Shown here: in pieces, positions 13,258 to 22,442 of the stretch | Layout of the letters: every line of letters starts with the position of its first letter | Numbering within the stretch: position 1 is the stretch's first letter | Source: Pseudomonadota bacterium | GTDB taxonomy: Bacteria; Pseudomonadota; Gammaproteobacteria; Acidiferrobacterales; Acidiferrobacteraceae | NCBI GenBank assembly: GCA_021819245.1 | Contig: JAKARI010000018.1 | Location: 1 to 52,607, forward strand | Length of the DNA stretch: 52,607 bases | Direction of reading: 5' to 3' | Translations under genes and position numbers: made by a program | Notes under the pieces: generated by a model | What the model saw: the letters and a program-made list of their open reading frames with translations, nothing else | What the model was told of the DNA's origin: nothing | Database searches by the model: none

Positions 13258-13452
13258 TCAGTCCGGCCAGACGCGCGGCGGATTCACGCCCCGCCCCCCG
13301 CCTGCGTTCAGATCCGCCTCATCGGCCGGCGTGGCCATGCCCTTGCCACCGGCGTCCGGGGCCGCGGGCCGCTCGGCCTCCGCGGGCTTCGTACCCGGGC
13401 GGCGCCGCTGGGTCTGAAGACTCGCGCTCAACTTATCTTCCAAGTTGCTCAT
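13258..13452 (-). CDS. mcdB: McdB, small disordered carboxysome-positioning adaptor
   Basis: A 64-residue protein with no hydrophobic core: a short N-terminal MSNLEDKLSASLQTQRRR segment followed by Ala/Pro/Gly-rich sequence. It ends VWPD; alpha-McdB proteins carry an invariant tryptophan near the C-terminus, and this is the only Trp here. Its ATG overlaps the mcdA stop (ATGA), the standard mcdAB arrangement. McdB loads onto carboxysomes and stimulates the McdA ATPase so that the organelles spread over the nucleoid. It is very short for the family. Confidence 0.8.
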   Translation of the reverse strand: MSNLEDKLSASLQTQRRRPGTKPAEAERPAAPDAGGKGMATPADEADLNAGGGRGVNPPRVWPD

Positions 13453-14072
13453 TTCAAGACCTCCTCGATGAGTCCTTCGATCTCTTCCCGCGCCCCCGCG
13501 GCCCGCTTGCCCATGTGATAGACGCTCAGGCCTTCGAGCGCCGCGCTGCGATAGATGGCGCGCCGGCCGACCCGGGCCGAGAGCACCGGCAGGCCGATGG
13601 CCGCGATCGCCGACTGCGAGGCCCGCGACAGGGCGCTGTGCGCCTCCATCTGGTTTAATACAAAATACCCGCGCAACCCCGGCCTCTGGTCCTGCAGACC
13701 CTTGAGAAGCTCGGCACTGCGCCGGCTCGCCCACAAATCGAGCGGCGATGGCAGCACCGGCAAAAGGACCACGTCCGTCTCCTCCAGGATCGCCTGAATC
13801 TCGTCGCCGTCTAGGCGCGGGGGGCAATCGTACACCCGGTAGTGGTGCTCGGGCGGCAGCCCCTGGCGCAGGCCCGTCCAGTCCGTGAGCGCGATGGCGT
13901 AATGCCCCTCGCTATCCGCCCAATTCGCCCAATCGCCGAGGCTGCCCTGGGGGTCGGCATCGACAAGGAGCGTGGGCGCGCGATGCGCAAGCCCCATCGC
14001 CAGGTTCCACGCGAGCGTGGTCTTGCCGCAACCGCCCTTGCTGTTATACAAAGCGATTCTCAGCGGCGCCAT
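13449..14072 (-). CDS. mcdA: McdA, ParA-type ATPase for carboxysome distribution
   Basis: A 207-residue ParA/MinD-type ATPase. The deviant Walker A is KGGCGKT at residues 12-18 with the signature lysine Lys12; the switch region TLLVDADPQGSLGDW follows. McdA forms ATP dimers on nucleoid DNA and positions carboxysomes with McdB. I start at MAPLRIALYN (14072) rather than at 14156, because ParA proteins begin just before the first beta strand and the upstream extension overlaps the acRAF gene. It overlaps mcdB by 4 nt. Confidence 0.9.
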   Translation of the reverse strand: MAPLRIALYNSKGGCGKTTLAWNLAMGLAHRAPTLLVDADPQGSLGDWANWADSEGHYAIALTDWTGLRQGLPPEHHYRVYDCPPRLDGDEIQAILEETDVVLLPVLPSPLDLWASRRSAELLKGLQDQRPGLRGYFVLNQMEAHSALSRASQSAIAAIGLPVLSARVGRRAIYRSAALEGLSVYHMGKRAAGAREEIEGLIEEVLK

Positions 14073-14079
14073 GGCGGAT

Positions 14080-14355
14080 TTAGCCCCGGATGCGCTGCGC
14101 GCAGGCGTCGGCCTCGCGCGCGAAATCCCGCAATCGGGGCCCGGCCTCATCGCCATCGAACGAAATGGTCACTACGACGTGCGTGCGGGCGAAATTGAGA
14201 TTTGGGTAATAACCGCTCGTCTCCGACAGCGCCGTAAGCCCATCGAGAAACCCGCGAGTCTGGGCATAGTCCGCGAAATCGAAGCGCTTGTTCCAGGCCG
14301 GCGGACGCTTCTGCTGCGTCCATCCTGGCAAAACCGCCGTATCATGGTCGTCCAT
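14080..14355 (-). CDS. acRAF, pterin dehydratase-like Rubisco assembly factor
   Basis: A 91-residue protein of the pterin-4a-carbinolamine dehydratase fold (PAWNKRFDFADYAQTRGFLDGLTAL, then YPNLNFARTHVVVTISFD). The canonical dehydratase motif with paired active-site histidines is altered (ARTHVVV keeps only one), which fits the carboxysomal acRAF group, reported as a Rubisco assembly factor without dehydratase activity. It sits between the bacterioferritin-like gene and mcdA, its usual place in alpha-carboxysome operons. Confidence 0.85.
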   Translation of the reverse strand: MDDHDTAVLPGWTQQKRPPAWNKRFDFADYAQTRGFLDGLTALSETSGYYPNLNFARTHVVVTISFDGDEAGPRLRDFAREADACAQRIRG

Positions 14356-14367
14356 ACCCCCCCCTTG

Positions 14368-14805
14368 TCACAGGCGTGGTGCAAGCGCCGCGCGCAACTC
14401 CCGCAGATGCCGCAGATGCTCCTCTTCGTCGGCCTTGAGGGCCGCGAAAAGTTCCGCGGCCTCGCGATCCCGCAGGCGCATGCTCACCGACGCGGCCTCG
14501 GCATAGAGGTTGACTGCCGCCTGCTCGAGATCGCAATCGCGCTCGAGCATCTCGTCGAGATCCCGCCCCGGCCGCGCCGCTCGCAAGGACCCGGCACAAG
14601 GCGCGATCCCGGCCATGAGCAACTGCCCGCTCAAGGCCTCGGCATGAGCGAGTTCCTCGCGGGCCTCGTCACGAAAACTCTGGGCCCAGTCCGCACGGCC
14701 CTGAAGCGTGCACACCGCCGCCTGCGCCACATACTGCTGCACGGCGCTGTATTCGTGATTGAGCGCCCGGGTGAGGAATCCCGTAACCCGCGGATGGCGA
14801 TGCAT
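14368..14805 (-). CDS. Bacterioferritin-like four-helix protein of carboxysome operon
   Basis: A 145-residue four-helix-bundle protein. Ferritin-type ligands are visible as NHEYSAVQQY in helix 1, EELAHAEAL in helix 2 and DEEEHLRHLRELR in helix 4. Bacterioferritin-like genes sit at this position in many proteobacterial alpha-carboxysome operons, but their role in the organelle is not settled. The protein is somewhat shorter than standard bacterioferritin (about 158) and has no obvious heme-binding Met. Immediately downstream, 12 nt away, is acRAF. Confidence 0.83.
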   Translation of the reverse strand: MHRHPRVTGFLTRALNHEYSAVQQYVAQAAVCTLQGRADWAQSFRDEAREELAHAEALSGQLLMAGIAPCAGSLRAARPGRDLDEMLERDCDLEQAAVNLYAEAASVSMRLRDREAAELFAALKADEEEHLRHLRELRAALAPRL

Positions 14806-14819
14806 GGCCGCCCCGCGCC

Positions 14820-15155
14820 TTAGCTCATGTTGCCCGTCACATCCCCATCGCGCCCGCCGCCGCTGCCGTCCGGCCGTGTCGGCAGGATGTGCTCCACCTC
14901 GGCGTGCACGCGCGCGATGATGTGGGCCGCCACCAGGCCGTCCCCCACCCGCTCGCAGGCATCGGCGCCGGCGCGCACCGCGGCGTTCACAGCCCCGGTC
15001 TCGCCGCGCACCAGCACCGTCACATAACCGCCGCCCACGAACTGGCGGCCGATCAAGCGCACCTCGGCGGCCTTGGTCATGGCGTCGGCCGCCTCGATGG
15101 CCGGCACCAGACCACGCGTCTCGATCATGCCTAAGGCTATACCCGTAAGCGCCAT
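14820..15155 (-). CDS. csoS1B: CsoS1B-like BMC-H shell protein with C-terminal tail
   Basis: A 111-residue BMC-domain hexamer protein (GIALGMIETRGLVPAIEAADAM, then the pore-lining loop of the family). It differs from its two neighbours by a 17-residue Gly/Asp-rich tail ending DVTGNMS, a length feature of CsoS1B. The start is set at 15155, since GAGGAG lies 7 nt before it; the ATG at 15161 is too close to that site. CsoS1 hexamers tile the flat facets of the carboxysome shell. Confidence 0.92.
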   Translation of the reverse strand: MALTGIALGMIETRGLVPAIEAADAMTKAAEVRLIGRQFVGGGYVTVLVRGETGAVNAAVRAGADACERVGDGLVAAHIIARVHAEVEHILPTRPDGSGGGRDGDVTGNMS

Positions 15156-15895
15156 CTGCATTCTCCTCGAAGATCTCGATCCATCGCTATCACCCCGTTA
15201 CGCCTTTCCATGCCGGTCGCAGATACCGCTCGGGCATCCGCCACCTTCCCCCGGCCCGTTTAGGCGCTCGGGGCCTTGGGCAGGATGTGCTCCACCTCGG
15301 AATGCACGCGCGCGATGATGTGGGCCGCCACCAGGCCGTCCCCCACCCGCTCGCAGGCATCGGCGCCGGCGCGCACCGCGGCGTTCACAGCCCCGGTCTC
15401 GCCGCGCACCAGCACCGTCACATAACCGCCGCCCACGAACTGGCGGCCGATCAAGCGCACCTCGGCGGCCTTGGTCATGGCGTCGGCCGCCTCGATGGCC
15501 GGCACCAGACCACGCGTCTCGATCATGCCCAATGCAATACCCGTCACGTCTGCCATTTTCCTGATCTCCTTCCTGTAAGCCGTTGAAAAGCCCGGACCGC
15601 GGCGCCTTAGGCGCTCGGGGCCTTGGGCAGGATGTGCTCCACCTCGGAATGCACGCGCGCGATGATGTGGGCCGCCACCAGGCCGTCCCCCACCCGCTCG
15701 CAGGCATCGGCGCCGGCGCGCACCGCGGCGTTCACAGCCCCGGTCTCGCCGCGCACCAGCACCGTCACATAACCGCCGCCCACGAACTGGCGGCCGATCA
15801 AGCGCACCTCGGCGGCCTTGCTCATGGCGTCGGCCGCCTCGATGGCCGGCACCAGACCACGCGTCTCGATCATGCCCAATGCAATACCCGTCACA
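14885..15895 (-). repeat. Three near-identical tandem copies of the csoS1 coding region
   Basis: Units of about 250 bp inside the three csoS1 genes (roughly 14890-15135, 15283-15530 and 15628-15875) are almost identical at the nucleotide level, including silent positions. Differences are confined to the ends, one Thr/Ser codon and the Ala/Ser codon near the C-terminus. The intergenic parts between copies do not match. Confidence 0.9.
15260..15556 (-). CDS. csoS1A: CsoS1 BMC-H carboxysome shell protein (second copy)
   Basis: A 98-residue BMC-domain protein starting MADVTGIALG and ending HILPKAPSA, the standard length of CsoS1A/CsoS1C. It forms hexamers whose small pores pass bicarbonate and other charged metabolites. 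It differs from the upstream copy at one residue (Thr for Ser in DAMTKAAE). The A/C naming is by position only. A longer in-frame extension upstream is not coding: it is the out-of-frame reading of the preceding copy. Confidence 0.93.
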   Translation of the reverse strand: MADVTGIALGMIETRGLVPAIEAADAMTKAAEVRLIGRQFVGGGYVTVLVRGETGAVNAAVRAGADACERVGDGLVAAHIIARVHSEVEHILPKAPSA

Positions 15896-15903
15896 TCTGC
15901 CAT
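15607..15903 (-). CDS. csoS1C: CsoS1 BMC-H carboxysome shell protein (first copy)
   Basis: A 98-residue BMC-domain shell protein, first of three in operon order and directly after csoS4B. The start is placed at 15903 (MADVTG), 6 nt behind a GGAGGG site; the ATG two codons earlier directly abuts that site. Function as for the neighbouring copy: main facet-forming hexamer. The gene has one distinguishing residue (DAMSKAAE). Confidence 0.93.
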   Translation of the reverse strand: MADVTGIALGMIETRGLVPAIEAADAMSKAAEVRLIGRQFVGGGYVTVLVRGETGAVNAAVRAGADACERVGDGLVAAHIIARVHSEVEHILPKAPSA

Positions 15904-15941
15904 TTCCATCCCTCCATACAGACCCTAACCCAAAACCCGCC

Positions 15942-16187
15942 TTACGGCTCCCAAAAATCGATGATCCCGCCGATGGTGAGATCGGTGTGGACCCCGAAAT
16001 CCCCTTGCGCATAGCGCGCCGCCGACCCCGCCACGGTAAACACCCACTTGCCGGGCGGTACCCCCACGGGATCGGTGGCCACGCTCAACTTTCCGGCCCC
16101 ATCGACAAGCACCCGCAACGATGCCTGCTTGAGGCCCGGCCCGCGCCGTGTCACCACGAGATCCGACACTACGCGCATGATCTCCAT
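15942..16187 (-). CDS. csoS4B: CsoS4B pentameric vertex protein
   Basis: An 81-residue EutN/CcmL-family (BMC-P) protein starting MEIMRVVSDLVVTRR and ending LTIGGIIDFWEP. Pentamers of this family cap the 12 vertices of the carboxysome shell. It begins one base after the csoS4A stop and ends 38 nt before csoS1. Compared with CsoS4A it shares the overall pattern (KIMRV-like start, GKWV, GSAAR, DLTI.GIID) at moderate identity. Confidence 0.93.
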   Translation of the reverse strand: MEIMRVVSDLVVTRRGPGLKQASLRVLVDGAGKLSVATDPVGVPPGKWVFTVAGSAARYAQGDFGVHTDLTIGGIIDFWEP

Positions 16188-16188
16188 C

Positions 16189-16440
16189 TCACTCCGGGCT
16201 CCAGTTGTCGATGATCCCGATGATGGTGAGATCCGAGGGATACTCCTTGCTGCCGGCCGCCTCGCGCGCCGCCGACGACCCCACGCAGATCACCCAATCC
16301 CCGGGGATGCAACCCACCGCGTCCACCGCCACCGAGCGCGGACCACCTTCCTTTTCCTGCACCACGAGAAGCGGTCTATGCCCCATCTCGCCTATGCGGT
16401 TGGTGGACACCAAGGTCTTTTCCACCCGCATGATCTTCAT
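16189..16440 (-). CDS. csoS4A: CsoS4A pentameric vertex protein
   Basis: An 83-residue BMC-P vertex protein starting MKIMRVEKTLVSTNR, with VDAVGCIPGDWVICVGSSAAR in the middle and DLTIIGIIDNWS at the end, all hallmarks of CsoS4A. It overlaps the csoSCA stop by 4 nt (ATGA). Two CsoS4 paralogs are normal for alpha-carboxysomes and seal the shell against CO2 leakage. Confidence 0.94.
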   Translation of the reverse strand: MKIMRVEKTLVSTNRIGEMGHRPLLVVQEKEGGPRSVAVDAVGCIPGDWVICVGSSAAREAAGSKEYPSDLTIIGIIDNWSPE

Positions 16441-18008
16441 GTCAGCACCACCTCCTCCAAGGCGCTGCCCGGCGCCCCGCTCTGAACGCTGCCGTGCAGA
16501 TACAAAAACCCGTCGCGCGTAAGCGTCGCGTAGCGGGCGCGTATCCCTTCGGCGATGCGCCGGATCTTGCTCTCGACCCGCGCGCGGCTCCCCGGGACCT
16601 GCTCGTTATAGTGGTAATGCAGCGCCATCGGGATCGGCAGGCCCCGCTCGACATTGAGGTGCGTAAAGATCTTCACCCCGACGTCGAGATCGGCGGTCGC
16701 CTCCTCCACGGTATCGAGCCTTGCGTAATAGGCGATGTTGCGCACCTGCACCTCCGGAAACCCATCGCCTACATTGATGAACCGCTCACCATGCCCCATG
16801 TCCCCATACCAGCCGCCATGGTGCTCGCCGACATACTCGATCTCGCTCATATTATTGATGAGCAAGGTGGCGATGAGCCTACGCATGCCATCATGCGGCA
16901 TACCCTCACCCTTGCCCCATCCGTCGGTGGCACTCGCTGCGCGGATCGCCTCGTAGACTGCAAGCCGCGCGCGGTCGGCATCGAGATGAAGCGTCTGCCG
17001 GTAGAGCGCGGCGTTGTCGATGAAGCGGTAGGCACTGACATCGCCGTGGGCGTCCGGCACATGCACGCGTATGGCATCGGTATCGGTATCGACACCGATC
17101 AGAAGGATGTCGGTCGCCGCCCCGCAACAAAACGTGTTTTCGATAGCGCGCCGAAACTCATAGAGCCGCTCGAGTGCCGCCTCGGTCGCGGCGCGCTCGT
17201 TGCTCCCGTGCGCCGCGCACCCCTGATGAGCAGGATCGAGCGAGCTGCCGTGATAGACCGCCACCTTGAGATAGCGGGTCTGCCCATCGGCCGTCACCGG
17301 GAAGCCCTCGCGATAGCGGCGCAGCTCGGCGCGCTCCCAGTGATGCACATCCTCCTCGACATCAAACATCGTCCCCGCAAAGGCGCTGCGCTTGACGAGC
17401 GATGCCGAAGGGATCCGCAGGATGTACGGAAACAGGCCCTTCAAGCGTCCGTCCGCGCACGCCGAGACATTCATGGCGTGAAACCCACAGTCGACCAAAA
17501 GCGCGTCCCAGCCCTGGCCCGCGGCCAGTTCCTCGCGTACGCGCTCGCCAAACTGCGCCACCGCGCCGGCGAGCGCCGCGAATACCGCGTGGGCATACAA
17601 GGCGCCCATGTCCGGGCCCCGCACCCAGGCACGCTCCAGCACCGGGACCGGCAGCTCGAACCCCAGGCGCGTGCGCGCCCTGTCCTGGGCGCGCGCCACA
17701 AAGTCCGCGCCCCGCCCCAGGTCTGCGATCTCCTGCAGGGTCGGCACGATGCGGTCAAACCGCCCTGTGATGCCCTGCTCGCAGGCGAACAATCGGGCGT
17801 TTTCGTTGCGGTCGACGAGCGCATGGCGGCAACCCCGATCGGGCAGTGTGGCGCATGCCGGGTGCGCGACACCCAGGGCCTGGGCGCGCGCCGCACCCGC
17901 GCGCGGCCACCCGGGCCGGGCCGGGCCGGCCGACGCCTGGCCCAGAAGACCGCCGCGCGCACGCCGCAGGGTGGAGGATCTGCGCGTATCCACGGCGCTA
18001 GCCCTCAC
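16437..18008 (-). CDS. csoSCA: CsoSCA (CsoS3), carboxysomal carbonic anhydrase
   Basis: A 523-residue epsilon/beta-class carbonic anhydrase. The zinc ligands and catalytic pair can be read directly: SACADGRLKG gives Cys184, Asp186 and Arg188; VYHGSSLDPAHQGCAAHGSN gives His253 and Cys264, the 11-residue spacing known for the Halothiobacillus enzyme. It dehydrates bicarbonate to CO2 next to Rubisco inside the shell. The N-terminal 70 residues are basic and Ala/Pro-rich, fitting the disordered region that docks the enzyme to Rubisco. The start is a GTG at 18008; an in-frame stop lies shortly upstream and the ribosome site is weak. Confidence 0.94.
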   Translation of the reverse strand: MRASAVDTRRSSTLRRARGGLLGQASAGPARPGWPRAGAARAQALGVAHPACATLPDRGCRHALVDRNENARLFACEQGITGRFDRIVPTLQEIADLGRGADFVARAQDRARTRLGFELPVPVLERAWVRGPDMGALYAHAVFAALAGAVAQFGERVREELAAGQGWDALLVDCGFHAMNVSACADGRLKGLFPYILRIPSASLVKRSAFAGTMFDVEEDVHHWERAELRRYREGFPVTADGQTRYLKVAVYHGSSLDPAHQGCAAHGSNERAATEAALERLYEFRRAIENTFCCGAATDILLIGVDTDTDAIRVHVPDAHGDVSAYRFIDNAALYRQTLHLDADRARLAVYEAIRAASATDGWGKGEGMPHDGMRRLIATLLINNMSEIEYVGEHHGGWYGDMGHGERFINVGDGFPEVQVRNIAYYARLDTVEEATADLDVGVKIFTHLNVERGLPIPMALHYHYNEQVPGSRARVESKIRRIAEGIRARYATLTRDGFLYLHGSVQSGAPGSALEEVVLT

Positions 18009-18038
18009 CCTCGGTGCACGACGCCCGCACGCCGCCTG

Positions 18039-20531
18039 TCATCCCCGTGCCCCTCCCGAGTAGGTCACGACCGAACCCTTGGGGGAGTTGCCGCTGCTGC
18101 CCGTGACCTTGCCCTCCGGCACCGGCACGGCCAGCGCGCGCTCGCGGTTGCCCGCGGCCGACATCACGCAATTGCGCGCCACGCCCCGCTGCGTGGGGTT
18201 GCGGCCCTGCGCCCAATGCCCCTCGGTGCCGGTCACGCGCCCGCTGCGGCTCCAGTCATCGCCCGTGATGCGCCACGCCCCCGGGGCCGGCGGCGCTGCC
18301 GCCGGTGCCTCGGGCGCCGGTGCCAAAGCGGCCTCCGGCCGCGCCTGTGCGCTCCCGCGGAATTCCGGTGTCCCGGTCACAAGCCCGCGTGCGAGATTGA
18401 TGGGCCCCGTGATGCGCCCGCCCTCTTCGCCGGCATGGCCGGTGATGCGCGAACGCCCCTGCCGGGCGGGCGACACCACGCTAAACTCCGCCACCGGCGC
18501 GTCCGTACGACCCGCCTCGTCCTGCGGGGGCGACACAAATCGGTGGCTGGCCATGGGGTGCGGCGCCCTGCGCGCGGACAGCTCCGCCTGCAGCGAGCGC
18601 ACGCGGTTTTCGAGCTCCTCGAACCGCGGCTTGCAGCCGCAGCCGCCCGCGCAGCCGCCGGTCCCGGGCTGTCCGTCGCGTGCCTGTCCCGCCGATGCGT
18701 GATGATCCATCACCGCCTCCTCGCGCCCTGCGTAGGGCGTGCCGCTTACCGTCAGTTCGGCCCCGGCCTCGTTGCCGGTCATGCCATCGCGCCCACCCAT
18801 GGCCGGGCCGCTCACGACATGGCCGCGGTCGGTGCGCGTAAGACCCACCTTGCGCGCACCCGCCTGCGGGGTGCTCCCGCACTGGGCGTAATGCTCCCGC
18901 CCGTAATACGCCACTCCGGTGACGGGCCAGCACCCTCCCCGCTCGTCACCTGTCGTTTTTGGGGGCTTGTCCATCCCCGTACCCGTCACCGCCGCGCCGC
19001 CCAGCCCCGTCATGACCTGCACCTTGTCGGGCGCGCCGCCGCATAACTGCGGACCGTTGTAGTGGGTGCCGGTCACGCGCTGGCAGGATCCCGGCTCGTT
19101 GCCCGTCACCTTTTCGGACCGATCCACGATATTGCCGGTGATGCGCTGCTGCCTGTCCGTCTGGCTCTCCAGGACCTTCGGGCCCCTGGTCGGCTCGGGC
19201 TTGGTGCGGCACACCGATGCAAAGGTTTCGGGGCTGAGGTATTCCGTCCCCGTGAGGGTCCGGCATGACCCGGCCTCGAGACCCGTGATCCGCCCGCTTG
19301 CCCCCACCGCCGTCCCCGATACCGGCCGGCCGGCTATGGTATGCGTCAAGGCGACCTTCTTCGGGGCCCCATTTATGGTCATGCGCGCAGCCCCCGCGTC
19401 GGCGTACTGCGACCCGGTCACCCGGGCCGCCGCCCCCGGCTCGGCGCCGGTGACCCGGTTTACACGCGCCTCATCGCTGCCGCTTACCGGCAGGCCCTGG
19501 CGCGCCGTGCGCCCGACCGCCACTTTTGCCGGATGCGCGGGCGCGGCGCTGTCGCACGCCGCCGCGAAATGATCGCCGCCGACGTATTCGGTCCCGGTCA
19601 CCGCGCGGCAGACCCCGGCCTCCGTGCCCGTCACGGCGCGCGCCGAGTTGATGAAGGTCCCCGTCACCGCCACGCTGGCCCCGGTCTGCCCGACCTGCAC
19701 CTTCGCCGGCCCAGGCCGCGGGCGCGTGTCGCAAAACCGCGTATAGTGCTCGGCCCCGAGGTACTCGGTACCGGTGATTGCGCGGCACGAGCCGGCCTCC
19801 GTACCCGTGATCGCGGGCGCGCGGTGCACCTGGCTTCCGGTCACGGCGCTGCCGGCAAGCGTCGCATCCGTCTCGACCTTGGCCGGGGCCTCCGGCCTGC
19901 GCCGCCGGGCGCCCGTAGGCCGCGCGGGCGCGGCCTCCCCGCGGCCACGAGCGGCTTGTTCCTGCCGATGCCTGCGCGCAAACTCGCGCGCGCGGCCGGT
20001 CTCGAGATACCGTTCACGGGCGGCCGCCGACAACAATCCGTTGCGCACCGGAATCGCCACCTTGCCGCGCTCTGCGAGTGAACGGCGCCGCGCCTTGCAC
20101 AGAGTGCGCACACTCGCGTCGCGCCCTCCCGACGCGCTGCCCTCGCCCTCGGCCGTTGCGCACACGGCATCGAGCACCGCGTCCTCAACGGTGGCCGCCC
20201 CCGGTGGCACGGCCTGCAGCGCGGTATCGGCCGCGGGCGTCACACCAGGCGATGACACGGTCGCACTTGCACCCGCGCCGGTATCGCGCGCCCCGGTGCT
20301 CGCGCGCTGTGCGCGCCGCAGGGCCTGGGCCTCGCGCCCGCGCGGCCTTACGGCCTGACCCTGCCCCGCGGTCGCAACCGCCGCGCCGGCCGTGGCCGCA
20401 GCAGGCCTTGGCGGCGTCGCGCGCACCCCCGACCGTCCCGGCCCACGCGCCCTTTGCTCTGCCTGCCGGCGCCGCATCTCCTGCGCCAAGGCCCGGCCAT
20501 GCAGACGGCCCGCTTCGGATAACTCCGACAT
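18039..20531 (-). CDS. csoS2: CsoS2, carboxysome scaffold (two predicted isoforms)
   Basis: An 830-residue intrinsically disordered scaffold. The N-terminal part (about 1-235) carries basic Rubisco-binding repeats, for example RRRSLAERGKVAI. The middle part has six to seven M-repeats built on VTGT/ITGT motifs with paired Cys (AGSCRAITGTEYLG, AGVCRAVTGTEYVG, PGSCQRVTGTHY). The C-terminal part ends in ITG/VTG motifs and the terminal peptide GSVVTYSGG, which anchors to the shell. The start at 20531 is preferred over 20552 because GAGGGGGA sits just upstream. A -1 frameshift signal at Lys525 predicts a 528-residue short form. The gene follows cbbS by 63 nt. Confidence 0.95.
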   Translation of the reverse strand: MSELSEAGRLHGRALAQEMRRRQAEQRARGPGRSGVRATPPRPAAATAGAAVATAGQGQAVRPRGREAQALRRAQRASTGARDTGAGASATVSSPGVTPAADTALQAVPPGAATVEDAVLDAVCATAEGEGSASGGRDASVRTLCKARRRSLAERGKVAIPVRNGLLSAAARERYLETGRAREFARRHRQEQAARGRGEAAPARPTGARRRRPEAPAKVETDATLAGSAVTGSQVHRAPAITGTEAGSCRAITGTEYLGAEHYTRFCDTRPRPGPAKVQVGQTGASVAVTGTFINSARAVTGTEAGVCRAVTGTEYVGGDHFAAACDSAAPAHPAKVAVGRTARQGLPVSGSDEARVNRVTGAEPGAAARVTGSQYADAGAARMTINGAPKKVALTHTIAGRPVSGTAVGASGRITGLEAGSCRTLTGTEYLSPETFASVCRTKPEPTRGPKVLESQTDRQQRITGNIVDRSEKVTGNEPGSCQRVTGTHYNGPQLCGGAPDKVQVMTGLGGAAVTGTGMDKPPKTTGDERGGCWPVTGVAYYGREHYAQCGSTPQAGARKVGLTRTDRGHVVSGPAMGGRDGMTGNEAGAELTVSGTPYAGREEAVMDHHASAGQARDGQPGTGGCAGGCGCKPRFEELENRVRSLQAELSARRAPHPMASHRFVSPPQDEAGRTDAPVAEFSVVSPARQGRSRITGHAGEEGGRITGPINLARGLVTGTPEFRGSAQARPEAALAPAPEAPAAAPPAPGAWRITGDDWSRSGRVTGTEGHWAQGRNPTQRGVARNCVMSAAGNRERALAVPVPEGKVTGSSGNSPKGSVVTYSGGARG
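18925..18963 (-). promoter_or_regulatory. Candidate -1 programmed ribosomal frameshift element in csoS2
   Basis: On the minus strand the slippery heptamer C CCA AAA (18963-18957) lies in the correct phase (codons Pro524, Lys525). Six bases later a hairpin can form from GGTGACG and CGTCACC, a perfect 7-bp stem with a 19-nt loop. In the -1 frame three codons (Asn-Asp-Arg) lead to TGA, which falls inside the stem. The truncated protein would lack the last M-repeats and the shell-anchoring C-terminus. Frameshifting that yields CsoS2A and CsoS2B is established in Halothiobacillus. Confidence 0.72.
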
Positions 20532-20594
20532 AGTGTCCCCCTCTAGGCCCATGACCCGATGCGACTCGAATCCGGCCCGTACGACTCAGTGTCT

Positions 20595-20927
20595 TTAAGA
20601 ACCCCGATGGACGACAAACGACAACCCCTGGCTCTGGGTGTAGTTGTCGTAGCCGATCAGGCGAATCAGGTGGTTGGGATACTCCCGCCGGCAGGCCTCG
20701 ATCTCCGCTAGCACCGTATCGGCATTGCGCTCCCCGAACATCGGCAGCTTCCACATATACCAGTAATAGGTAAACGGCCGGTTGGGCTCTATATGCTCCA
20801 CTGCCGGATTCCAGCCCTGCGCGATGATGTACTGAATCTGCGCGCGGGTCTGCTCAGCGGACAACGGCGGGAGATACGAGAATGTCTCGTACCGGCGGAC
20901 TTGCTTGTACTCTTGCACATCGGCCAT
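20595..20927 (-). CDS. cbbS: Rubisco small subunit, form I
   Basis: A 110-residue form I small subunit. Family marks include [10 protein letters not shown] at the N-terminus, [13 protein letters not shown] in the middle and [13 protein letters not shown] near the end. It assembles with CbbL into the L8S8 holoenzyme packaged in the carboxysome. The gene lies 42 nt after cbbL with its own ribosome binding site (AAGGAGAT just before the ATG). Confidence 0.97.
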
Positions 20928-20969
20928 GGCGATCTCCTTAAACTCGATAGACGTGTCTGATCACGGACA

Positions 20970-22388
20970 TTAGCGGTTCTGAACGTCGAGCTTGTCGACG
21001 GTATCGAACTCGAACTTGATCTCCTTCCACGTCTCCAGGGCGATCTTGAGCTCGGGCGAATGGCGCGCAGCATTGGTCAAGATGGCCTTGCCTTCCTTCT
21101 CGACGTCCACACCGCGGTTGCGGGCCTCGACGCACGCCTCGAGCGCCACGCGATTGGCGGCCGCACCCGCGGCATTGCCCCACGGATGACCCAAGGTGCC
21201 GCCGCCGAACTGAAATACCGCATCATCGCCGAAGATGGCGAGCAACGACGGCATGTGCCAGACATGGATACCGCCCGAGGCCACCGCGAAGGCCCCCGGC
21301 ATCGCGCCCCAATCCTGATCAAAGAAGATGCCGCGATTGCGGTCTTCCGGGATGTAGGACTCGCGCAGCAGATCGATCCAGCCGAGCGTCGAGGCGCGAT
21401 CGCCTTCGAGCTTGCCGACCACGGTCCCGGTATGGAGGTGGTCGCCGCCGGACAGGCGCAGGGCCTTCGTGAGCACGCGGAAATGGATACCGTGGTGCGG
21501 GTTACGGTCGATCACGGCATGCATGGCGCGATGGATATGCAGCAAGACACCGTTCTTGCGGCACCAGCGCGCAAGCCCGGTGTTGGCGCAAAAGCCCCCG
21601 GTCAGATAGTCGTGCATGATGATCGGCATGCGCAGTTCCTTGGCGAACTCGGCACGCTCGTACATCTCCTCGGGCGACGGTGCGGTGACGTTCAGGTAGT
21701 GCCCCTTGCGTTCACCGGTCTGGGCCTCGGCATTGTGAATGGCGTCGGCCACGAACAGGAAGCGGTCACGCCAGCGCATAAACGGCTGGGAATTGACGTT
21801 CTCGTCGTCCTTCGTGAAGTCGAGACCGCCGCGCAACGCCTCATAGACCGCGCGGCCGTAGTTCTTGGCCGAAAGACCGAGCTTGGGCTTGATCGTGCAG
21901 CCGAGCATCGGCCGGCCGTACTTGTCCATCTTGTCGCGCTCGACCTGAATGCCGTGCGGCGGGCCGTTGCAGGTCATGACATAATGCAGCGGGAAGCGCA
22001 CGTCCTCCAGGCGCAGCGAGCGCACCGCCTTGAATCCGAACACGTTGCCGACAAGCGACGTGAATACGTTTACCACCGACCCCTCCTCGAAGAGGTCGAT
22101 CGGATAGGCGACGAAGGCGTAGAAAGATGTGTCGTCGCCCGGGACGTCTTCGATGCGATAGGCGCGCCCCTTGTAGTAGTCGAGGTCCGTCAGCAGATCC
22201 GTCCAGACCGTAGTCCAGGTCCCTGTGGAGGACTCAGCCGCCACGGCCGCCGCCGCCTCTTCCCGGTCGACACCGGGCTGCGGCACGATCTTGAAACACG
22301 CGAGAATATCCGAGTCCAAAGGCACGTAGTCCGGAGCCCAATACGTCTGGCGGTACTCCTTGACGCCGGCTTCATATTTCCCAGCCAT
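20970..22388 (-). CDS. cbbL: Rubisco large subunit, form IA
   Basis: A 472-residue form I Rubisco large subunit. Catalytic residues are visible: TIKPKLG (Lys167, Lys169), the carbamylated lysine in FTKDDE (Lys193), HIHRAMHAV, and loop 6 [10 protein letters not shown]. The N-terminus [21 protein letters not shown] is that of carboxysomal form IA. The start at 22388 is chosen because GGAGGA lies just upstream and homologs begin MA(V/G)K; the 18-residue extension to 22442 crosses the predicted transcription start. First gene of the carbon superoperon. Confidence 0.98.
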
Positions 22389-22442
22389 AGATCCTCCTGA
22401 AGTAACGGTCAACTCGACCTGCAAAGCGGCTTTAAGGCGCAC

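Follow-up and report, generated by a model that had tools for sequence, protein, structure and literature searches.

The csoS2 gene in the window (here the whole stretch of DNA analysed, 52,607 nucleotides) raises the question of whether its messenger is translated into one protein only or also yields a shorter one by −1 ribosomal frameshifting. According to passages of the literature, CsoS2 bridges the cargo and the shell of the alpha-carboxysome and influences carboxysome size. Frameshifting by −1 in csoS2 has been published for Halothiobacillus neapolitanus (Chaijarasphong et al. 2016, J Mol Biol), and a passage of a review puts its efficiency there at 50 % and counts 79 of 162 species for which it was predicted. 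As an idea, csoS2 frameshifting is already published; the site in the window adds another, predicted case.

The gene lies on the minus strand at 18039..20531 and encodes a zero-frame product, CsoS2B, of 830 residues. It was assigned by its match to Pfam CsoS2_M (3.5e-111) and, with phmmer, to the CsoS2B chain 8b12_X (7.4e-159). The surrounding cso operon (13449..22442, minus strand throughout, assigned by Pfam matches) comprises cbbL (20970-22442), cbbS (20595-20927), csoSCA (16437-18008), two genes for EutN/CcmL-type vertex proteins (16189-16440 and 15942-16187), genes for BMC shell proteins (within 15260-16012, and 14820-15161), a ferritin-like gene (14368-14805) and a ParA-like gene (13449-14156). 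The CsoS2_M domain, with cbbL, cbbS, csoSCA, vertex and shell genes nearby, identifies the gene as csoS2 of an alpha-carboxysome. Its start was set at the ATG at 20531, upstream of which stands a Shine-Dalgarno-like GAGGGGG; this gives 830 codons, and the mechanical open reading frame begins at 20552. In 10 of 15 family-type csoS2 genes (the window gene and L002 among the ten, L017 not) the open frame opens just 5′ of the matching Met, so an earlier start is impossible in those genes. An open frame of 850 codons also runs along the plus strand at 16494-19046, antisense to csoSCA and csoS2, and is likely a by-product of G+C-rich codon use.

At the site the minus strand reads AAG CCC CCA AAA ACG ACA GGT GAC GAG. 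Direct reading confirmed the slippery heptamer C CCA AAA, which the original prediction had placed in phase at codons 524-525 (18957..18963, minus strand, read from 18963 to 18957). It is followed by a spacer of 6 nt (18951..18956, minus strand; direct reading, and a gapless alignment of 36 distinct sequences) and by the predicted 7-bp stem, the arms of which were assigned by folding, RNAalifold and pair counts: GGTGACG at 18944..18950 and CGTCACC at 18918..18924, both on the minus strand. The 5′ arm can be extended to 18941, with an A·C mismatch at 18943, and the 3′ arm to 18927. In the −1 frame the reading AAC GAC AGG TGA likewise bears out the claim of a stop after three codons within the stem; the TGA (18947..18949, minus strand) lies in the 5′ arm, and the tail would be Asn-Asp-Arg. 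The predicted products of 528 and 830 residues agree with this stop and with the start at 20531. The interval first given for the signal, 18925-18963, takes in the heptamer and the 5′ arm but stops just short of the 3′ arm at 18924..18918. All the sequence elements of a −1 frameshift signal are present, and they support the interpretation as a prediction for this organism.

The position of the heptamer, which follows the pattern X XXY YYZ in phase, is homologous to that of the published site. CsoS2B chains in the PDB are 863 and 869 residues long (8b12, 9ly8); the PDB listing names no organism for them, and 869 is the H. neapolitanus length according to passages of papers. Pro566-Lys567 of the 869-residue protein align with Pro524-Lys525 of the window gene. 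Lys567 plus three codons makes 570, the CsoS2A length in the published passages, so that the position coincides with the known site. An older paper, in the part available, gives R573, three past 570, as the last mapped CsoS2A residue before a gap, and passages of other papers put the H. neapolitanus site in the sixth middle repeat. As far as these sources describe it, the H. neapolitanus case thus shares with the window the gene, the sixth middle repeat, the Pro-Lys pair, the three −1 codons followed by a stop, the 3′ stem and the loss of the C-terminal shell-binding region; it differs in the bacterial group and in the product lengths, 570 and 869 there against 528 and 830 here. The predicted tail Asn-Asp-Arg is that of the window gene, and the two sites are likened from a protein alignment.

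The dnaX gene of Escherichia coli combines a heptamer with a 3′ stem-loop and has an additional Shine-Dalgarno-like stimulator upstream, and the short form of the beta-carboxysome protein CcmM arises from internal translation starts, hence without the N-terminus and with no frameshift involved. Both genes resemble csoS2 in giving two products: tau and gamma from dnaX, a comparison drawn in a passage of the review, and long and short scaffold forms from the gene for CcmM, as described in passages of the literature. Differences from dnaX are the gene and the heptamer, and the review, in the passage available, saw no upstream Shine-Dalgarno-like stimulator for H. neapolitanus csoS2.

Relatives of the gene were collected by Pfam CsoS2_M searches, which brought together csoS2 from 127 genomes chosen by kinship to the window, one gene being read in each. 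Omitted from the 127 were second loci of the same gene, the named copies L061-L068, the second csoS2 of G396 and the contig-end pieces of G295 and G246; L178 was added later and stands outside this number. The two csoS2 genes of G396, on contigs C7 and C206, are of similar score. A phylum-level search found csoS2 in 2 of 398 genomes and added one gene, a pattern search in one order matched 1 of 12 genomes, which was already in the set, and a plasmid search returned four records, none of which covered 80 % of the query.

A gene was counted as a carrier of the cassette if the second half of its protein has the motif Pro-Lys-x-(Thr/Ser)-Gly-Asp with C CCA AAR in phase before it. This motif presets the spacing to Gly-Asp, and with it the spacer length in every carrier; it does not preset GGT, the −1 stop or the 3′ arm. 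By this definition 48 of the 127 genes are carriers, 38 with C CCA AAA and 10 with C CCA AAG, and they span eight family labels (15, 14, 9, 4, 2, 2, 1 and 1 genes). The proportion of 48 in 127 holds for a sample drawn by kinship, against the statement in a passage of the review that the slippery sequence occurs in most proteobacterial csoS2. All 48 carriers use GGT for Gly at the site, whereas the remaining Gly-Asp/Glu pairs of these genes have it in 114 of 339 cases, and the −1 TGA therefore follows after exactly three codons in all 48.

The comparison of the heptamer with flanking silent sites in close relatives, proposed as a check in the original prediction, came out in its favour. In the window's genus 13 of 14 csoS2 genes keep the heptamer, the window gene included, and the codons CCA, AAA, GGT, GAC, GAG, TGC, GTC and ACC are invariant in the 13. 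In these genes the 20-codon window adjoining the heptamer shows synonymous differences at 0.20 of expectation, the lowest ratio of 483 such windows; ranked by deficit it is fourth, behind overlapping or nearby windows, with the best offset at +4. When column values were redealt within each amino acid, 0 of 2000 permutations reached the synonymous conservation of the site in the genus, and 0 of 2000 in the 14 genes of family f178; masking the heptamer codons left the result at 0 of 5000 in each set. L012 and L002 were excluded from the genus test and L143 from the f178 test. The site windows were first again in 12 genes chosen one per genus (0.40 of expected, 124 windows). In nine f164 genes the site window stands at 0.0, tied with N-terminal windows, these genes being too alike. 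The frameshift signal is under selection beyond that on the protein sequence, and the cassette for which the survey shows this extends across eight family labels.

The stem was examined in a gapless alignment (A1) of 36 distinct carrier sequences, from which L002 is absent, so that it stands outside the pair counts. RNAalifold, unprompted, returned nearly the same helix, minus pair 8, which is unpaired in 28 of the 36 sequences, the window gene among them. In the 10-pair version of the stem 91.7 % of cells pair, and pairing falls to 21-55 % if the partner is slid by 1 to 3 columns. Three of the ten pairs show two-sided changes (7 of 500 shuffles had as many). Cells changed on both sides number seven; the shuffles averaged 1.3, and none of 500 reached seven. 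A slide of one column likewise yields three pairs with two-sided changes, but only 37 % of cells then pair. Among the clearest paired changes are GAG/CYC to GTC/GAC in L082 and C-G to G-C in four f157 genes. Only a few lineages contribute paired changes (L082, L150, the four f157 genes and the CTC variants), and five of the ten pairs never vary and hence give no covariation signal. The alignment indicates that the stem is maintained via paired changes among relatives.

One congener has parted from this pattern. In L002 (codons 525-541 of its open frame) CCG CAA stands where the others have CCA AAA, and both ends of the stem are disrupted, with GAT for GAG and ACG for ACC; about half of the gene (0.47) folds as well as the stem region. 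The full-length csoS2 frame is retained despite the loss of the heptamer and the stem ends. In the CsoS2 tree L002 is nested among carriers, so that this looks like a natural loss of the entire frameshift signal. The orthologous repeat is without the heptamer in L070 and L071 as well.

The tree was a quick one, with long-branch warnings and with the site's own columns included, and L175, L058, L072 and L035 were omitted from it. In it, 43 of 47 carriers form one group with L002, and the four f157 genes stand apart at an unresolved place, with 13 cassette-free genes separating them from the main carrier group. The history of the cassette may comprise one origin with losses or two origins, both being compatible with the tree. 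Genus g491 of family f178 has two distant kinds of csoS2, one with the cassette and 857-917 codons (L131-L136, L138) and one cassette-free with 698-774 codons (L144, L145, L148, L149, L151, L152), as if cso operons had been exchanged.

On these grounds the site in the window csoS2 is, very probably, a programmed −1 ribosomal frameshift site, because the sequence elements, the conservation beyond the protein, the covariation of the stem, the joint loss in L002 and the match to the published CsoS2A end all point to it. A rival reading takes the heptamer and the inverted repeat as by-products of coding for Pro-Lys and for TGD/VTG repeats, without slippage. TG and VTG are indeed common across CsoS2. 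The caution attached to the original prediction, that GTCACC and GGTGAC recur because they encode VTG and TGD, was tested on the pairing: among five canonical-pattern repeats of the window gene the site repeat forms 7 of 7 pairs and the other four only 3, 2, 3 and 5 of 7. Given the high G+C content of the gene, the stability of the site stem is unremarkable: an equally stable fold is found for 15.6 % of the gene's in-phase 40-nt windows, and folding gave z −1.8 for a 47-nt stretch (11 of 200 shuffles equally stable) and z −0.8 for a 117-nt stretch (43 of 200). Slippery strings also arise elsewhere, 11 in-phase CCC AAA R being scattered among the 79 cassette-free genes, with −1 stops 1 to 110 codons on. 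Codon use at the site nevertheless speaks against an origin through coding. AAA accounts for 2 of 17 Lys codons and CCA for 3 of 58 Pro codons in the window csoS2, the site included in both counts; in the 48 carrier genes none of the 156 other Pro-Lys pairs is slippery, and a second in-phase CCC AAA R was not found in them. With the peak of synonymous conservation at the site and the constancy of the GGT codon in addition, it is most improbable that coding alone accounts for the cassette. Chance through coding was rejected on codon counts, permutations, masked permutations and repeat pairing.

Conservation might also reflect some other RNA or DNA element, such as a regulatory hairpin, an RNase site or a pause. 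Downstream of the stem the codons Tyr TAT, Gly GGG, Glu GAG and Tyr TAC are invariant in the 13 genus genes, at +18 to +24 after the heptamer (18888-18908, minus strand), so that the constrained RNA may extend beyond the stem; upstream, codons −6 and −5 are alike in 12 and 11 of the 13. This reach, to about +24, exceeds what a heptamer and a stem need. A generic hairpin, however, requires neither an in-phase C CCA AAR nor a −1 stop three codons on, features that are joined in every carrier, and the position equals the CsoS2A end given in the published passages. The Rfam search found no family at the site, with three weak sub-threshold matches elsewhere, and a known Rfam element at the site was ruled out on this basis. 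We consider an element of this kind very unlikely to explain the site. That the site worked in ancestors and survives in the window's species as a relic has next to nothing to recommend it: the congener L002 has lost the cassette, and such a loss would be tolerated, the short form being described in passages on H. neapolitanus as dispensable, but the window gene retains every element of the cassette and has none of the decay seen in L002.

If the site acts as a programmed frameshift signal, the ribosome would be held by the stem 6 nt ahead while tRNA-Pro sits on CCA and tRNA-Lys on AAA. Both tRNAs would slip back by one base in tandem, tRNA-Pro from CCA to CCC and tRNA-Lys from AAA to AAA; Asn, Asp and Arg would then be read, and the TGA would terminate translation. 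A fraction of the ribosomes would produce the 528-residue CsoS2A and the remainder the 830-residue CsoS2B. Judged from domain roles given in passages of the literature, the predicted CsoS2A would keep the Rubisco-binding N-terminus and most of the middle repeats and lack the C-terminal shell-binding region. For the window's organism itself we infer the slippage, its rate and the role of the short form from sequence comparison. Natural comparisons that bear on this role are offered by L002 against its congeners, and by the A AAU UUU genes described below against their neighbours without the site.

A candidate for a second site emerged from a scan of cassette-free genes, and its statistics are therefore to be read as those of an unplanned find. 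L041, L043, L044 and L051, and L178 as a later addition, have A AAU UUU in phase with a stop in the −1 frame three codons on (csoS2 codons 526-556), and all five are without a CCC AAR cassette in the sixth repeat; L178 was the one gene added by order searches for more such genes (8, 4 and 2 genomes). The five bear the family labels f52, f64, f50, f138 and f64, respectively, and their proteins share 63-83 % amino-acid identity. The heptamer is found where a middle repeat ends, 68-69 % of the way along the protein. The base before AAT is always A although the codon varies (GTA in three genes, GAA in two), and AAT, TTT, TGC, GCT, GAA, GAC and the first GCG are invariant in the five genes. The 20-codon window at the site is the most synonymously conserved of 570 (observed/expected 0.09) and also first by deficit; 1 of 2000 permutations was as extreme, and 120 of 5000 were once the heptamer codons had been masked.

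A hairpin follows A AAU UUU in all five genes, and its stability is equalled by only 1.2 to 3.5 % of the in-phase windows of the respective gene. Its inner stem begins 6 nt past the heptamer and includes the TGA, like that of the first site, and its outer stem begins 0-1 nt past the heptamer. In L051 two departures form G-U pairs, and 22 of 200 shuffles are equally stable. The five genes lie far from the cassette carriers in the tree, four of them as a group and the fifth, L051, sharing an unresolved fork with three genes that have no A AAU UUU site; of 19 short-type genes aligned at this place, four have the site. We are evenly divided on whether A AAU UUU represents a second, independent csoS2 site, by which the short-form frameshift would have been gained at least twice. 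Our confidence is held at this level by the statement on most proteobacterial csoS2 in the review passage and by the tree place of L051. Chaijarasphong et al. (2016) may already count heptamers other than CCC AAR, and literature searches, judged from passages, returned nothing on a second heptamer in csoS2. If the second site is real, the short CsoS2 was reinvented with another heptamer, which argues that the ratio of short to long form is under selection. The natural loss in L002 and this possible second origin add to the interest of the cassette.

Further heptamers were met with in the collected genes. A third site was considered in L131-L137, where an A AAU UUU close to the C-terminal domain is followed at once by a −1 stop; it was rejected on finding no excess of synonymous conservation (rank 65 of 463). 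The same heptamer occurs in isolation in L079. CCCAAAA is found in phase, with a −1 stop after three codons, at codon 236 of L044 and codon 239 of L058, in two genomes of one genus; it lies near the start of the middle region, and a frameshift there would leave little beyond the N-terminal domain.
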